The notes beneath the pieces were generated by a model. That model did no database searches. It was not told where the DNA came from and saw nothing but the letters and a program-made list of their open reading frames with translations. Positions 57,467-63,884 of a DNA stretch of 64,000 nucleotides are shown one piece after another. A program made the position numbers and the translations under genes. Numbering within the stretch: position 1 is the first letter of the stretch; each line of letters starts with the position of its first letter. This stretch comes from Lysobacter capsici (lineage in GTDB: Bacteria; Pseudomonadota; Gammaproteobacteria; Xanthomonadales; Xanthomonadaceae): the NCBI RefSeq assembly GCF_014779555.2, contig NZ_CP094357.1, positions 1,984,001-2,048,000 of the forward strand. The letters are read 5' to 3'.

Positions 57467-57547
<81 letters not shown>

Positions 57548-57601
57548 TCGCAAGCATGATGCGCGCGCCCGTCGCCCGTCGCCACGACGCCTAAGCGATC
57601 G

Positions 57602-60013
57602 CTACGGCTTCAACGTCAAGGTATAACGCGCCTGCCCCGGCAAGAACGGCGTCGGCCGGCCGTGTACCCAATCGTCGTGACCCGCGCCCCAGAACGGCGA
57701 TAGCGGATGCCCGCTCTGGCCGCCGGGCATATGGATGATGCCGTCGACCTCGTGACCGGGCGAGACCACCATGCGTTCGGAGGCACCGAAATCCGGCCGC
57801 TGCACGCGCGGCATCGCGGCGTCGCCGGGGAGTTGCTCGAACGGCATGCACAGCGCGCGCTTGGCGAAGCCGGGCAGGGCCGAGGCGAGCGGGTGGCAGA
57901 TGCGCGCGGTGTTGTGCTCGCCCCACGTGTGCTTGGCCAAGGCCGCGGCGGCGTTCGCGCCGGGCGCGATGCCGAAATCGTCGAGCACGTCGCGCGCGGC
58001 GTGTTCGAGCAGGTCGTCCCACGACGCTTCGTTGCGCGGCAGCAGATTCGCCGGGCGCTGCTCCAGCAATGGCCAGACCACGCCCTCGAGCTGCTTGAAT
58101 TCGGGCATCTCGAATTGCTTGCCCAAGGCGACCTGCGCCGGCGCGGTCAGGCCGTTGGCGATACGCGTATGCACGGCGCGACGCCAGTTGCGGACCAAGC
58201 GATAACTGACCGAACCGGGTTCGGCGCGGCCTTCCCATTGCTTTGCGGCGGTGGCGAGCGCGCCCAGCGCGGTGCCGTCGCCGTTCTTGCCGGTGCGCGC
58301 GGCCTGATCCTGCAGCAGCTTCCACCAGCGCTGCAGGAACAAGGCGCGATCGTCGAGCTGGATCGCCAGCAGATCGCGTTCGTTGAAACGCTGCTTGGCG
58401 AACAGGCCGTCGCGGATCTGTCCGGCGCGCGCGCCGAGTACGTAGTTGCCGTCGCCGATGCGTTCGAGTTCCAGGCCGTCGAGAGTGCGGGTGTTCGCGG
58501 TCCACAGCCGGCCCGAGGGCGGCGCGATCAGATGCGGTGCGTCCTGGGTCTGGATCGTCCACGGGGGGCAGGTCGGCGGCGCGAGCGCTTGCCCGCGCGG
58601 GTCTGCGTTCTCGACCGCCAGGGTGGTGGCGCAATCGCCTTCGCGTTCGGGAATCGGGCCGAGCAGGCGCCAGCCGATCTTGCCGTTGCGGTCGCCGACG
58701 ACCAGGTTCTGCACCGGCAGCGCGACCTCGCGCGCGATGCTCATCGCATCGTCGACCGATTGCGCGCGGGTCAGTTCCGACAGGCCCATATTGAGCGCGC
58801 CGGGCAGGTGCGCCGACCAGCGCAGCGCCAGCGCGCTGCCGTCGGCGTTGTCGTGCATCAGCGGGCCCCAGGCGGTTTCGCGCACGAGGAATTTCCGCGC
58901 CGCGCCGCCTTTGACCGCGATGAGTTCCTCGTGCTCGATCAGGCCGGCGCAGCCGCCGGGCTTGGCCGTGCTCGCGCAACCCGGTTCCAGCGACCAGTCG
59001 GCCCAGTCGCCGTAGCTGTTGGTGAACGCCCAGGCGACCTGGCCGTTGCTGCCGACCACCAGCGCCGGCAGGCCGGGCAGGGTGAAGCCGTTGGCGTCGA
59101 TGCGGCCGCCGGGCACGCGCGCGTCGGCGTAGCGCAGGCGCGCGCGGAACCACAGGTTGGGCGCGCGCAGGCCCAGGTGCATGTCGTCGGCGACGATCGC
59201 GCGCCGGTCGGCGGTGAGGCTGCCGGCGACGGCGAAGTTGTTGCTGCCGATCTCGTCGGGAAACGGCAGTTGCAGCAGGCCGCCGGGCGCCGGCGTGGGC
59301 AGTTTGCGCAGGTCGACCTGATCGGCGCCGGGCAGGACCGCATCGCCGATCGGCGCGCCGAACAGCGGCGCATCCCAGCTGGTGCCGGCGTGGCTCAGCA
59401 ACCGGTACAGCGGCGCGGGCAGCGAATGGCCCAGTTGCCAGTCGCCGAATTCGCGCGCATTGGCGCCGTCCTGCAGGTCGAAATACATGGCGTAACCGAC
59501 CAGGGCCGAGTCGGTCACCGTCCAGGCCTCGGGCTGCGCCTGCAGCAGCAAATAAGGCCAGGGCTTGCGCGACAGCCCCCGCAGGCCGGCATTGACGCCG
59601 TCGCTATAGGCTTGCAGCAGCGCGGTCTTGTCGTTGGCGAAAGCGGCCAGTTCGCGCTGCACGCGGCTGCGCAGGCGATGCACGCGATGGCGGCGGTCGT
59701 AATCGAGCGCGCGTTCGCCGAACAGCGCCGACAACTCGCCGGCGGCGGTGCGGCGCAGCAGGTCCATTTCGAAATAGCGCTCCTGGCCGTGGACATAGCC
59801 CAGCGCGCGCATCGCATCGGTCTGGTTGGCGGCGTCGACGGTAACCACGCCGAGCGCGTCGCGCTGGATCGTCACCGGTGCCGACAGGCCGGGCAGGGCG
59901 AGCTCGCCCTGCAATTGCGGCAGGCTGCCGCGCAGCAACCACCAGGCGCCGACAGCGGCGATCGCGAACAGGCAAAGCAGCGCGAGCACACCGCGCTTGA
60001 TCCATTTGGCCAT
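57602..60013 (-). CDS. Penicillin acylase family protein
   Basis: This N-terminal-nucleophile hydrolase of the penicillin acylase (S45) family is 803 residues long. Members cleave amide bonds of penicillins, cephalosporins or acyl-homoserine lactones after self-processing into two chains. It has an N-terminal membrane anchor or signal (MAKWIKRGVLALLCLFAIAA). The alpha-chain region carries GYVHGQERYFEMDLLRRTAA. The processing site and nucleophile Ser are in IGSNNFAVAGSLTADRRAIV (Ser near residue 257). Further on are NGQVAWAFTNSYGDW and MPGGQSGHPLSPFWGAGHDDW at the end. The substrate cannot be told from sequence. Start at 60013. Confidence 0.92.
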   Translation of the reverse strand: MAKWIKRGVLALLCLFAIAAVGAWWLLRGSLPQLQGELALPGLSAPVTIQRDALGVVTVDAANQTDAMRALGYVHGQERYFEMDLLRRTAAGELSALFGERALDYDRRHRVHRLRSRVQRELAAFANDKTALLQAYSDGVNAGLRGLSRKPWPYLLLQAQPEAWTVTDSALVGYAMYFDLQDGANAREFGDWQLGHSLPAPLYRLLSHAGTSWDAPLFGAPIGDAVLPGADQVDLRKLPTPAPGGLLQLPFPDEIGSNNFAVAGSLTADRRAIVADDMHLGLRAPNLWFRARLRYADARVPGGRIDANGFTLPGLPALVVGSNGQVAWAFTNSYGDWADWSLEPGCASTAKPGGCAGLIEHEELIAVKGGAARKFLVRETAWGPLMHDNADGSALALRWSAHLPGALNMGLSELTRAQSVDDAMSIAREVALPVQNLVVGDRNGKIGWRLLGPIPEREGDCATTLAVENADPRGQALAPPTCPPWTIQTQDAPHLIAPPSGRLWTANTRTLDGLELERIGDGNYVLGARAGQIRDGLFAKQRFNERDLLAIQLDDRALFLQRWWKLLQDQAARTGKNGDGTALGALATAAKQWEGRAEPGSVSYRLVRNWRRAVHTRIANGLTAPAQVALGKQFEMPEFKQLEGVVWPLLEQRPANLLPRNEASWDDLLEHAARDVLDDFGIAPGANAAAALAKHTWGEHNTARICHPLASALPGFAKRALCMPFEQLPGDAAMPRVQRPDFGASERMVVSPGHEVDGIIHMPGGQSGHPLSPFWGAGHDDWVHGRPTPFLPGQARYTLTLKP

Positions 60014-60339
60014 GAAGGTCCTCCGTAGGGCGAGCTTAGCCGAAGTCTGCGGCGGCCCGGCGAAGCTGGGATGAAGTGGCGGGTTGGTCGAAGAACGGTT
60101 TTGCCCGGGCGGCCACGGAATCTGGCGGCCTGTCATGGAGGGGCGGCGGACGGCGGCTTTGCGGCCCGTTGCGAACGATCCGTTGCCTGAGCGAATAGCG
60201 GCGGCAGCGATAGCCCTTCCACGCCAGATGCCGCGACGCGTGGGGCGGACGGGGTGAAATGGCGGGACCGCGACGGCCGTCGCGCTGGCCCGCATCCGGG
60301 GCGCTTGCATCCGGCGCCGTCCTCAAGCAGGATCGGTCC

Positions 60340-60465
60340 ATGAGCTTGCATTCCGCCATCGCCATCGCCCGCAGCGCCGCCTTCGCCGGCCGCGCGCGCG
60401 CGGCCGCGGTACGGGGCAACAATAATAATCGCAATAACGCCAGCCTCCCGCGGGCCGGCGATTAG
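60340..60465 (+). CDS. Asparagine-rich leader peptide of asnB
   Basis: A 41-codon frame with AGGA seven bases before its ATG. Codons 27-33 (60418-60438) read Asn-Asn-Asn-Asn-Arg-Asn-Asn, six asparagine codons in seven, using both AAC and AAT. The frame ends at TAG 60463-60465, about 33 bases before a strong terminator and 165 bases before the asnB start. This is the layout of Trp/His-type leader peptides, with the end product of the downstream enzyme as the sensed residue. Codons 1-26 are Ala/Arg-rich and uninformative. The regulatory role is inferred from position and composition. Confidence 0.82.
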   Translation: MSLHSAIAIARSAAFAGRARAAAVRGNNNNRNNASLPRAGD

Positions 60466-60530
60466 CGCGCGCAACACACGCTCAATCGCTCAGGAAGCCC
60501 GCACTGCGAAGTGCGGGTTTTTTTGTTTTT
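60402..60530 (+). promoter_or_regulatory. Proposed asparagine-responsive attenuator
   Basis: Three mutually exclusive pairings can be drawn. Arm 1 (60402-60409, GGCCGCGG) pairs with arm 2 (60448-60456, CCGCGGGCC, one bulge), enclosing the Asn codons. Arm 2 (60450-60455, GCGGGC) pairs with arm 3 (60497-60502, GCCCGC). Arm 3 pairs with arm 4 in the terminator (60498-60517). A ribosome stalled on Asn codons would cover arm 1, free arm 2 and block the terminator. A ribosome reaching the stop codon would cover arm 2 and let the terminator form. Pairings were found by eye, not by energy calculation. Confidence 0.65.
60498..60530 (+). terminator. Intrinsic terminator inside the asnB leader
   Basis: The perfect 8-bp stem CCCGCACT/AGTGCGGG with a GCGA loop is followed by seven Ts, G and five Ts. 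It lies upstream of asnB and not after a long gene, so it can only act on the leader transcript. That fits an attenuator. Confidence 0.93.
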
Positions 60531-60630
60531 GGGGTGTGTGTTAGAGCAGGTGTTCGTCCTTGAACAAAAGCCCGGCCATCCATGGCTGGGGATTCAGAAA
60601 AGAGCCGTATAACCCCACCGGAGATTTTCG

Positions 60631-62316
60631 ATGTGCTCGATCCTAGGTTTGTTCGACCTGCGCCCCGGCGCCGATCTGCGGCCGCTGCGGCCGCTGGCCC
60701 TGTCCCTGTCGGCGAAGCAGCGCCATCGCGGCCCCGACTGGTCCGGCGTCAGCGTCGAGGCGCGCGCGATCCTGGTGCATGAGCGCCTGGCCATCGTCGA
60801 TCCCACCGGCGGCTCGCAGCCGCTGCGTTCGGCCGACGGCGAGCTGGCGCTGGCGGTCAACGGCGAGATCTACAACCATCGCGAACTTGAGCAGCAGCTC
60901 GCGCAACCGTATGCGTTCCAGACCAAGTCCGATTGCGAAGTCATCAACGCGCTGTACCGCGAAAGCGCCGACCTGGGCGAACTGCTCAACCGCCTCAACG
61001 GCATCTTCGCCTTTGCCCTGTGGGATGCGGCGCGCGGCCGCTACGTGATCGCGCGCGATCCGTTCGGCGTGTGTCCCTTGTACTGGGGCCACGACGCCGA
61101 CGGCCGCCTGTGGGTCGCGTCGGAAATGAAGGCGCTGGCGCGGCTGTGCGACGACGTCGCGCCGTTCCCGGCCGGGCATTACTACGACAGCGACGTCGGC
61201 GTGCCGGTGAAGTATTACCAGCGTCCGTGGCGCGACTACGCGGCGACCGAAGGCGTGGAGGTGTCCAAGCAGGAACTGCGCGAGGCGTTCGAGCGCGCGG
61301 TGCATCGGCAGATGATGAGCGACGTGCCGTACGGGGTGCTGCTGTCGGGCGGTCTGGATTCATCGCTGGTCGCGGCCTGCGCGGCGCGTTTCGCGCGTCG
61401 GCGCATCGAAGAGGACGATCAGGCCGAAGCCTGGTGGCCGCGCCTGCATTCCTTCGCGATCGGCCTGGAAGGCTCGCCCGATCTGGCCGCGGCCGAGATC
61501 GCCGCGGCCGCGCTCGGCACCGTCCATCACGGCTTCACCTACACCTTCGAAGAAGGCCTGGACGTACTGCCCGATGTGATCGCGCACATCGAAACCTACG
61601 ACGTCACCACCATCCGCGCCTCCACGCCGATGTTCCTGCTCGCGCGCCGGATCAAGGCGATGGGCGTGAAGATGGTGCTGTCGGGCGAAGGCTCGGACGA
61701 AATCTTCGGCGGCTATCTGTATTTCCACAAAGCGCCGAACGCGCGCGAGTTCCACGAAGAACTGGTGCGCAAGCTCGATGCGCTGCACAGCTTCGACTGC
61801 CTGCGCGCCAACAAGTCGATGATGGCCTGGGGCGTGGAGCCGCGGGTGCCGTTCCTGGACGTGGAGTTCATCGAAGTGGCGATGCGCATGGACGCGCAGG
61901 CCAAGATGGTCGACAAGGCCACCGGCCGGATCGAGAAAGCGGTGCTGCGCGAAGCCTTCGAAGGCTATCTGCCCGATTCGATCCTGTGGCGGCAGAAGGA
62001 GCAGTTCAGCGACGGCGTGGGCTACGGCTGGATCGACGGACTCAAGGCGCACGCCGAGGCGCAGGTTGGCGATCGCGAATTCGCCACCGCCGCCAGCCGC
62101 TTCCCGATCAACACGCCGCAGACCAAGGAGGCCTATTACTACCGCGGCCTGTTCGAGCGCCACTTCCCGGGCACCGCCTGCGCCGAGACCGTGCCCGGCG
62201 GCAAGTCGATCGCCTGTTCCTCGCCGGCGGCGATCGCCTGGGACGCGGCCTTCGCCAATGCCGCCGATCCGTCGGGCCGCGCGGTGGCGGGGGTGCATCA
62301 GGCGGCGTTGGTCTGA
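60631..62316 (+). CDS. asnB: Asparagine synthetase B (glutamine-hydrolysing)
   Basis: AsnB makes asparagine from aspartate, glutamine and ATP. The 561-residue protein begins MCSILGLFDL, with the glutaminase nucleophile Cys at position 2 after Met removal. The glutaminase domain includes KQRHRGPDWSG, VHERLAIVDPTGGSQPL and LAVNGEIYNHREL. The synthetase domain has the PP-loop LLSGGLDSSLVAA (near residue 239), MVLSGEGSDEIFGGYLYFHK, WGVEPRVPFLDVEFIEVAMR and LWRQKEQFSDGVGYGWID. Length and motifs match E. coli-type AsnB and not the diverse AsnB-like enzymes of biosynthetic clusters. ATG at 60631, with GGAG nine bases upstream. It follows an Asn leader peptide and attenuator. Confidence 0.97.
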   Translation: MCSILGLFDLRPGADLRPLRPLALSLSAKQRHRGPDWSGVSVEARAILVHERLAIVDPTGGSQPLRSADGELALAVNGEIYNHRELEQQLAQPYAFQTKSDCEVINALYRESADLGELLNRLNGIFAFALWDAARGRYVIARDPFGVCPLYWGHDADGRLWVASEMKALARLCDDVAPFPAGHYYDSDVGVPVKYYQRPWRDYAATEGVEVSKQELREAFERAVHRQMMSDVPYGVLLSGGLDSSLVAACAARFARRRIEEDDQAEAWWPRLHSFAIGLEGSPDLAAAEIAAAALGTVHHGFTYTFEEGLDVLPDVIAHIETYDVTTIRASTPMFLLARRIKAMGVKMVLSGEGSDEIFGGYLYFHKAPNAREFHEELVRKLDALHSFDCLRANKSMMAWGVEPRVPFLDVEFIEVAMRMDAQAKMVDKATGRIEKAVLREAFEGYLPDSILWRQKEQFSDGVGYGWIDGLKAHAEAQVGDREFATAASRFPINTPQTKEAYYYRGLFERHFPGTACAETVPGGKSIACSSPAAIAWDAAFANAADPSGRAVAGVHQAALV

Positions 62317-62401: not shown

Positions 62402-62869
62402 TCAAAGCCCGCAACCGATCCAGTTCTGTTGCTTGCTGCGATTGTCGACCGTGCCGTTCGGGCAAACCACGTCGATGATGGCGAATGCGTTCAGTTCGCA
62501 CGTCGAGCTGCGGCCGACGAACTTGATCGCCTCGGCCGGCGCCGGCGGATATTGATTTTCTCCTTGACGCTGAGTCGTCTCGAAGGTCCACGGATCGCTC
62601 GGGCTGTTGCGATGCCCCGCCTGCGAACGCAAGGTGTAGCGCGGAACCGGCGGACTGACGGCGTTGTTCGCAAGAACGGTGGTGTTGACCACGACGGTCG
62701 CGGTGGAGGTGGTGTTGCCGAAGTCGAAGGTGAAGCGGCCGGTGTAGGCACCGTTGCACAGCGGTACCAAGGTGTCGACATCGGGCGGCGGCGTGGCGAC
62801 GGCGGATAGCGAAGCGAGCAAACACGCGGTCAGGGTGCCGAACAGGCCGATCGAACGAATCTTGTGCAT
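62402..62869 (-). CDS. Small secreted protein with C-terminal NWIGCGL, copy 1
   Basis: No named family recognised. The 155-residue protein has a signal peptide (MHKIRSIGLFGTLTACLLAS, cleavage near SAVA). The mature part holds CNGAYTGRFTFDFGNTTSTA, a likely beta-rich region, then STCELNAFAIIDVVCPNGTV and the end KQQNWIGCGL. The four cysteines (CNG, CEL, VCP, GCGL) suggest two disulfides. Start at the ATG at 62869, with AAGGAACG upstream; the longer frame from 63223 is not protein-like before this point. It is paralogous to the gene at 63408. Confidence 0.82.
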   Translation of the reverse strand: MHKIRSIGLFGTLTACLLASLSAVATPPPDVDTLVPLCNGAYTGRFTFDFGNTTSTATVVVNTTVLANNAVSPPVPRYTLRSQAGHRNSPSDPWTFETTQRQGENQYPPAPAEAIKFVGRSSTCELNAFAIIDVVCPNGTVDNRSKQQNWIGCGL

Positions 62870-63407: not shown

Positions 63408-63884
63408 TTACAGGCCGCAGCCGACCCAGTTGCGCGTGAGCTGCTTGGTCTCCCAGCTGCCATCGGGGCAGTGCACGTTGACGATGGCGCTGGCGACCAA
63501 TTCGCAGCCCGCGTCCTTGAACAACATGCCGTTCGCGGTGACCGGCGAGGTCGAGAAGGCGCCGTAGACTTCGCTGCTGTGGGTGTCGCTGGTCCAGTTC
63601 GGGTTGACCGAGTTGCGCCGCATCACCGTGCTTTCGGCGACGAAATAGCTGGGGTACGGGATCGACCCGTGGACGAAGGGATGACGCACCAAGCTGGCTT
63701 CGGCGTGGGCGCTGGCGGTGGTGCCGGTCTGGCCGAAATCCAGTTGCAGTCGAGCCGAGTATCTGCCGCCGCAGGCGGACTGGTTTTCCAGGACGCTGGG
63801 CGGATCGGACGCGAACGCGGCCAACGGCAGGATCAGCGAGAGCAATCCGGCGGCGAGCGCCGAGGCGGTGTGGGTCTTGAGCAT
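63408..63884 (-). CDS. Small secreted protein with C-terminal NWVGCGL, copy 2
   Basis: This 158-residue paralogue of copy 1 has a signal peptide (MLKTHTASALAAGLLSLILP, cleavage near AAFA). It shares CGGRYSARLQLDFGQTGTTA, GCELVASAIVNVHCPDGSW and the end TRNWVGCGL, with all four cysteines in the same places. The middle region (VRHPFVHGSIPYPSYFVAES) is different from copy 1. Start at the ATG at 63884. No catalytic motif is apparent. It may be a secreted inhibitor or binding protein, but that is a guess. Confidence 0.82.
   Translation of the reverse strand: MLKTHTASALAAGLLSLILPLAAFASDPPSVLENQSACGGRYSARLQLDFGQTGTTASAHAEASLVRHPFVHGSIPYPSYFVAESTVMRRNSVNPNWTSDTHSSEVYGAFSTSPVTANGMLFKDAGCELVASAIVNVHCPDGSWETKQLTRNWVGCGL

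Follow-up and report, generated by a model that had tools for sequence, protein, structure and literature searches.

Background

Ribosome-mediated transcription attenuators are known for the trp, his, leu, thr, phe and ilv operons. Leader-peptide attenuation is a textbook form of RNA control, yet the list of amino acids that it is known to read has stayed short. Asparagine genes elsewhere respond to the supply of asparagine by other means: the T-box controls them in Firmicutes, and AsnC controls asnA in E. coli. As for the start of such leaders, the excerpted text of a study of S. meliloti describes an attenuated RNA, rnTrpL, that begins with the ATG of trpL itself (PMC7298713).

The 5′ leader of asnB in Lysobacter capsici resembles these systems in its parts. 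It had been predicted from the letters of this DNA that an Asn leader peptide controls asnB by attenuation, and the comparison with relatives supports this, since the Asn run, the terminator and the alternative pairing co-occur. We consider, with a probability of about 0.88, that the leader acts as a ribosome-mediated transcription attenuator which reads asparagine by way of charged tRNA-Asn. The whole case is computational.

Layout of the asnB Leader Region

The window (the whole stretch of 64,000 nucleotides that was analysed) comes from a genome of 6.24 Mb in a single contig, and Lysobacter is placed in the Lysobacteraceae, Lysobacterales. The asnB product scored 849 bits against the NCBIfam asparagine synthase B model, for which the cut-off is 499, and the closest named asnB records are three Lysobacter sequences of 92–94% identity. 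The parts of the leader, their order and their spacing can be read off the DNA as follows:

60305..60310, + strand: −35-like element TTGCAT of the putative leader promoter (direct reading; peak in the start-codon alignment)
60328..60333, + strand: −10-like element CAGGAT, 17 nt past the −35-like element (best placement of a −10-like hexamer across loci)
60340..60465, + strand: Asn-rich leader peptide ORF of 41 codons and TAG, probably leaderless (ORF reading; 118 loci in four families)
60418..60438, + strand: regulatory codons AAC AAT AAT AAT CGC AAT AAC, six Asn in seven (direct reading)
60450..60455, + strand: arm 2, GCGGGC, within the leader ORF at its 3′ end; forms the 5′ side of the antiterminator (folding and arm comparison)
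60457..60490, + strand: inner hairpin of the antiterminator, which includes the leader stop codon at 60463–60465 (folding)
60497..60502, + strand: arm 3, GCCCGC, common to the antiterminator (with arm 2) and the terminator (with arm 4) (folding and arm comparison)
60492..60524, + strand: intrinsic terminator, arms 3 and 4 and then a T tract, −20.7 kcal/mol (folding; kept in relatives)
60631..62316, + strand: asnB, glutamine-hydrolysing asparagine synthase B, with its own GGAG before the ATG (NCBIfam NF006949, E 1.5e-255)

The translation of the leader ORF is MSLHSAIAIARSAAFAGRARAAAVRGNNNNRNNASLPRAGD, with Asn codons at 60418–60429 and 60433–60438; direct reading thus agrees with the original prediction of a 41-codon frame that has six Asn codons in seven and is followed by asnB. 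The terminator had been put at 60498–60530, and folding moves it slightly upstream, the hairpin itself occupying 60492–60523 in the window and the T tract coming after it. A search of Rfam had been proposed as well; at the gathering threshold no family matched anywhere in the window, with the T-box model among those searched. The segment 60300–60640 gave no match in plasmids.

Some other features of the surroundings were observed. A palindromic stretch at 60565–60615 (AGCCCGGCCATCCATGGCTGGGGATTC...), in the gap that separates the terminator from asnB, looks like an interspersed repeat; its core, GGCCATCCWTGGC, is present in 13 of the 243 fetched loci (some genomes occur twice), including upstream regions of Lysobacter and Rhodanobacter asnB. 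After asnB, two similar small proteins of secreted appearance are encoded in tandem on the minus strand (62402–62869 and 63408–63884), and similar small-protein genes seem to trail asnB in several loci of the same genus. The divergent neighbour of the attenuator, 57602–60013 on the minus strand, is a gene whose product resembles a penicillin-acylase-type amidase, and at about 57480–57560 there is a GC-rich short-period repeat that reads (GN)n or (PL)n depending on the frame.

Proposed Course of the Switch

In the model, transcription would begin at or beside the A of the leader ATG, and as a consequence the ribosome would load at the 5′ end of the RNA and trail RNA polymerase. When charged tRNA-Asn is plentiful, the ribosome would pass the Asn run and reach the stop codon at 60463–60465 with its footprint over arm 2; with arm 2 covered, arms 3 and 4 would pair, transcription would stop near 60524, and asnB would be off. 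When charged tRNA-Asn is scarce, the ribosome would be held within the Asn run, whose final codon ends 11 nt before arm 2, so that arm 2 stays free to pair with arm 3 around the inner hairpin; the terminator would then be pre-empted and asnB transcribed. Where transcription begins, that the leader is translated, that ribosomes stall on it, that transcription terminates and that asparagine governs the outcome are predictions from this arrangement. In addition, asnS, the gene of asparaginyl-tRNA synthetase, scored above its cut-off in 40 of 41 genomes (with that of the window among them), and free asparagine can therefore charge tRNA-Asn directly, as the model requires.

The Asn Run and Its Codons

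First of all, the Asn run exceeds what shuffled DNA yields. When the 420 nt ahead of asnB were shuffled 2000 times with dinucleotides preserved, no short ORF reached 6 Asn in 10 codons; the maximum was 4, against 6 in the real sequence. Over the whole set, at least 6 Asn in 10 codons are found in 60/118 real leaders versus 0/2360 shuffles (118 loci, 20 shuffles each). The pattern AAYAAYAAYNNNAAYAAY has 3 sites in the 6.24-Mb genome versus 1 for the reversed control pattern, and the sites besides the leader are at 359103, in a CAACGG-type simple repeat, and at 815985.

Moreover, in the 26 loci that share the window's leader type the Asn codons swap only between AAC and AAT, and among leaders in general the peptides diverge widely (NNNNRNNASLPRAGD, NNRPNNLNGNRNNN, NSNNRNNLRANN and others), so what is kept is the Asn content and not the peptide. 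This bears on an explanation in which the leader is a stand-alone small gene, for a small protein or an sRNA, with a terminator of its own, a separate promoter serving asnB and the adjacency being incidental. Such an explanation draws on the fact that a terminator between two ORFs usually closes the first one, and a consensus promoter scan that found none for either the leader or asnB leaves a separate asnB promoter conceivable; it sits badly with Asn richness that persists while the remaining peptide changes, and with a frame that ends 75–341 nt before asnB in 118 loci. We regard it as very improbable, all the more in the light of the arm pairing described below.

The choice of Asn codons is itself peculiar. 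AAT makes up 223 of the 496 Asn codons of the leaders (45%) versus 79 of the 667 in asnB (12%) at the same 76 loci, an odds ratio of 6.1. The excess could come from wobble decoding or from avoidance of GC-rich structure, and the heavy use of AAT in the leader is in any case a concrete and testable oddity.

Start of the Leader

In an ungapped alignment on the start codon, a TTGC-like peak appears at about −36 to −32, and the best −10-like hexamer has its last base 7 or 8 nt ahead of that codon in 91/117 loci (L069, too close to the end of its stretch, is left out), with C at −1 in 89%. From this spacing, transcription is predicted to start at the leader start codon. CAGGAT matches TATAAT at 3/6 positions; the promoter is far from consensus and was missed by the scan, and the claim about the start therefore rests on conservation.

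A Shine–Dalgarno sequence for the leader had also been proposed. In the window, its AGGA at 60329–60332 belongs to the −10-like CAGGAT, 7 nt before the ATG, and this part of the original prediction is withdrawn. An AGGAGG-like 4-mer is missing in 83 of the 118 leaders, and the other 35 have AGGA only, which in the rows listed sits inside the −10-like hexamer; asnB itself has an AGGAGG-like 4-mer in 111/118 loci. The leader is thus probably leaderless, judging by this alignment.

An RNA of this kind raises the question of a further function. If asparagine is plentiful, attenuation would yield a short RNA that begins with AUG, as is S. meliloti rnTrpL in the excerpted account (PMC7298713), and by analogy with rnTrpL/peTrpL the terminated leader RNA or its peptide might act in trans in addition to attenuation, with which such action is compatible. 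The leader peptides are unconserved beyond the Asn run and the arms, so that a trans-acting peptide common to the group is unlikely, and we hold the addition as a whole to be doubtful.

Terminator and Antiterminator Pairing

A terminator-like hairpin precedes asnB in all 118 loci with an Asn leader, 109 of them found by script and 9 by eye, and not a single Asn leader stands without one. In the comparison across genera that had been suggested for this prediction, the run, the terminator and the alternative pairing were found together in Lysobacter, Xanthomonas and Stenotrophomonas. The T tracts are imperfect in many loci.

The alternative pairing between arm 2 and arm 3 was compared over the loci. 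At every locus, arm 2 was taken at set distances from the leader stop codon and arm 3 at a set place within the terminator, and consequently neither was fitted to the other; nine loci with no hairpin or a wrong one by script (L009, L013, L014, L090, L091, L095, L104, L112 and L141) are left out of the arm counts. In this anchored register 563/654 cells pair, versus 168/545 to 303/654 when arm 2 is slid by 1–3 nt. When arms were swapped between loci, the best of 2000 swaps reached 546 cells, in a test that ignores relatedness and is inflated by it. With arm 4 omitted, arm 3 pairs with the leader arm in 106/109 minimum-energy folds; the controls give 986/2180 (45%) when the leader arm is shuffled and 367/2180 when everything 5′ of arm 3 is shuffled. 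The inner pairing of the antiterminator amounts to at least 4 bp in 104/109 loci, and the mean energy z-score, again with arm 4 omitted, is −1.5. A coding arm that pairs with a terminator arm this often, above shuffled arms, speaks further against an independent small gene ahead of asnB.

Base changes were followed within the pairing. It is kept through a change from G-C to A-T at position −14 (10 loci) and from C-G to T-A at −11 (21 loci); in the anchored register, 22/109 loci are unpaired at −11 (14 of them A-A) and 4/109 at −14. On an asnB tree of 76 loci, of which 61 are in register, the pair changes number 2 at −14 and 3 at −11, too few for a significant sign test, and at −11 arm 3 is often unchanged where arm 2 differs. 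The tree set is without L160, L176 and L187, whose asnB has no leader, and the 15/76 rows out of register were dropped from the covariation test. Against its own shuffles arm 2 reaches p ≤ 0.05 in 55/109 loci, and p is 0.18 in the window; in DNA so rich in GC any single locus is weak, and it is the set as a whole that carries the case.

For the RNA of the window, both alternative folds are predicted by the folding check that had been called for. If arm 2 is free while arm 4 has yet to be transcribed, the RNA takes the antiterminator fold (−24.7 kcal/mol); if arm 2 is covered, it takes the terminator fold. With all arms free the terminator wins, as it is also predicted to do in the untranslated leader; since free RNA containing arm 4 prefers the terminator, the choice must fall during transcription. 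As for the geometry, the stop codon follows closely on arm 2, which is inside the footprint that a terminating ribosome has. The gap from the last Asn codon to arm 2 measures 11 nt in the window; among the 109 loci, 52 have a gap of 11 nt and 27 one of 14 nt. With arm 2 in this position, a ribosome stalled on Asn would leave it free and a ribosome at the stop codon would cover it.

The Asn run might instead work through translation-dependent RNA stability or Rho-dependent termination, with no choice between hairpins. Weak T tracts at some loci would fit, as would the candidate Rho-linked leader peptides that the excerpted text of PMC1262725 describes for cysteine genes of Actinobacteria; a terminator-like hairpin at every one of the Asn-leader loci and an arm 2–arm 3 register that is fixed relative to the stop codon point the other way, and we give this mechanism little credence beside the ribosome-mediated attenuator.

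In addition to these arms, a protector arm 1 was considered, either at 60402–60409 or, as in the free fold, at 60356–60373, and was rejected as unsupported. Pairing of the region before the first Asn codon with arm 2 reaches p ≤ 0.05 in 10/113 leaders, with a median p of 0.37, and in 5/118 leaders fewer than 9 nt precede the first Asn codon, which leaves no room for a protector. Among the competing arms named in the original prediction, 60448–60456 (here 60450–60455) and 60497–60502 were about right and 60402–60409 is without comparative support. As far as the comparison goes, three arms seem enough for the switch.

Distribution among Relatives

The asnB gene was found in 20/20 genomes of the genus (the window's own included), 221/247 of the family and 90/151 of the order. 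Ninety-seven family loci were taken and L036 was left out for want of upstream DNA; all 96 with usable upstream DNA have, ahead of asnB, a short ORF in which 3 or more of 10 codons are Asn. Another 40 loci gave the leader in 7/8 for the family, 11/12 and 3/3 for two sister families, f12 and f2, and 1/5 for a further family, f7 (L130, with a terminator). For the family, an Asn-rich short frame thus stands before asnB in 103/104 loci examined, these being asnB loci among the matches listed, with lower-scoring copies outside the count (except that of G058, i.e., L138, which has no leader), so that the figure leans to close orthologues. The leader was scored absent in 9/9 loci of f9 and in the single loci of f4, f5 and f10; among the loci scored absent, L126 (f9) and L129 and L131 (f7) have 3 Asn in 10 by a looser script, with no terminator.

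Several individual cases deserve mention. The Asn leader of L130, MFAIYNTINTTNNRLLRSAGSF, comes with a strong terminator and is alone among the five f7 loci, either as a gain of its own or through loss in the others. L138 (f1) and L120 (f12), both without the leader, have asnB 65% identical to that of the window and are probably acquired copies. Among 80 named loci, the leader and the terminator arm occur together in 40, several of them from genomes already counted. The genera include Lysobacter, Xanthomonas, Stenotrophomonas, Pseudoxanthomonas, Luteimonas, Thermomonas, Arenimonas, Rhodanobacter, Dyella, Fulvimonas and Frateuria, and the species include Xanthomonas euroxanthea, X. cannabis and Stenotrophomonas maltophilia. 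L160, L176 and L187, in records labelled Holophagales, Deltaproteobacteria and Rhodococcus, have asnB 84, 80 and 74% identical to the window's and no leader; they are either transferred genes or misassigned contigs.

The remaining 37 named loci (L197–L233) cover Vibrio, Shewanella, Photobacterium, Rheinheimera, Colwellia, Ferrimonas and others, including two MAGs labelled Lysobacterales, L197 and L207. Of these loci, 5/37 reach 3 or more Asn in 10 codons versus 111/740 shuffles, which is the shuffle level. The best of them, L214 from Photobacterium with 5 Asn, has no terminator by script, and at some of the 37 a terminator-like hairpin stands without a preceding Asn frame. In the class sample, asnB of the window's type is rare (4/274 at E ≤ 1e-150; NF006949 9/274 at 1e-80).

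L210, with 4 Asn in 10, sits within this set and yet counts as a candidate. It is the same locus as L234, from a Rubrivirga-labelled MAG in which a frame containing Asn (...RNLTNANRNPV...) and a strong terminator precede asnB, and Rubrivirga belongs to the Rhodothermota. The same arrangement is present in two more genomes of the Rubrivirga class, L235 (...FNANPNPV...) and L236 (...LNVNNVNPNPAP...). In a sample of 100 genomes from that class there were ten asnB matches, of which three have a candidate Asn leader and a terminator; six of the other seven (L237–L242) do not have this arrangement, and L243 is too partial to judge. An independent origin of these candidate leaders in Rhodothermota is likely.

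Attenuation by asparagine looks like the standing control of asnB throughout the family, which has plant-associated, soil and clinical members. More than 100 natural variants of a compact three-arm switch also make a good testbed for how the position of the ribosome decides the choice of RNA structure, with no protector hairpin and a leaderless start.

Comparison with Known Systems

Among the literature matches listed, a coverage outside which most subscription papers and all bioRxiv preprints fall, no asparagine leader-peptide attenuator is described, and the word asparagine is absent from the term-searched text of two related papers (PMC1262725 and PMC8632094). What the comparison of loci points to is very probably a new amino-acid specificity of a known mechanism, broadly conserved and well supported by comparison. 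It is also somewhat more likely than not that this is the first asparagine-reading ribosome-mediated attenuator, forming a class with three arms and a leaderless start which extends over no fewer than three Lysobacterales families, Xanthomonas and Stenotrophomonas included, and that the same solution arose separately before asnB in a Rhodothermota lineage (L234/L210, L235 and L236).

Like attenuators of the trp and his type, the asnB leader has a short ORF rich in codons for the product, mutually exclusive terminator and antiterminator folds, and a place directly upstream of the biosynthetic gene. Unlike them, it would read asparagine, is probably leaderless, and has no supported 1:2 protector hairpin. 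As far as the excerpted texts go, S. meliloti trpL shares the ATG-initial RNA that is predicted for the asnB leader, but it concerns tryptophan, a peptide of 14 residues and an alphaproteobacterium, while the ilvBNC attenuator of Corynebacterium glutamicum (PMC11857589) likewise places a few control codons ahead of an antiterminator and a terminator that overlap, but it responds to branched-chain amino acids and has a proposed antiantiterminator hairpin, an element that is comparatively unsupported at asnB. The T-box and AsnC likewise connect the supply of asparagine to asparagine genes; they do so by direct binding of tRNA or by a DNA-binding protein, whereas the asnB leader would do so through the ribosome that translates its Asn codons.
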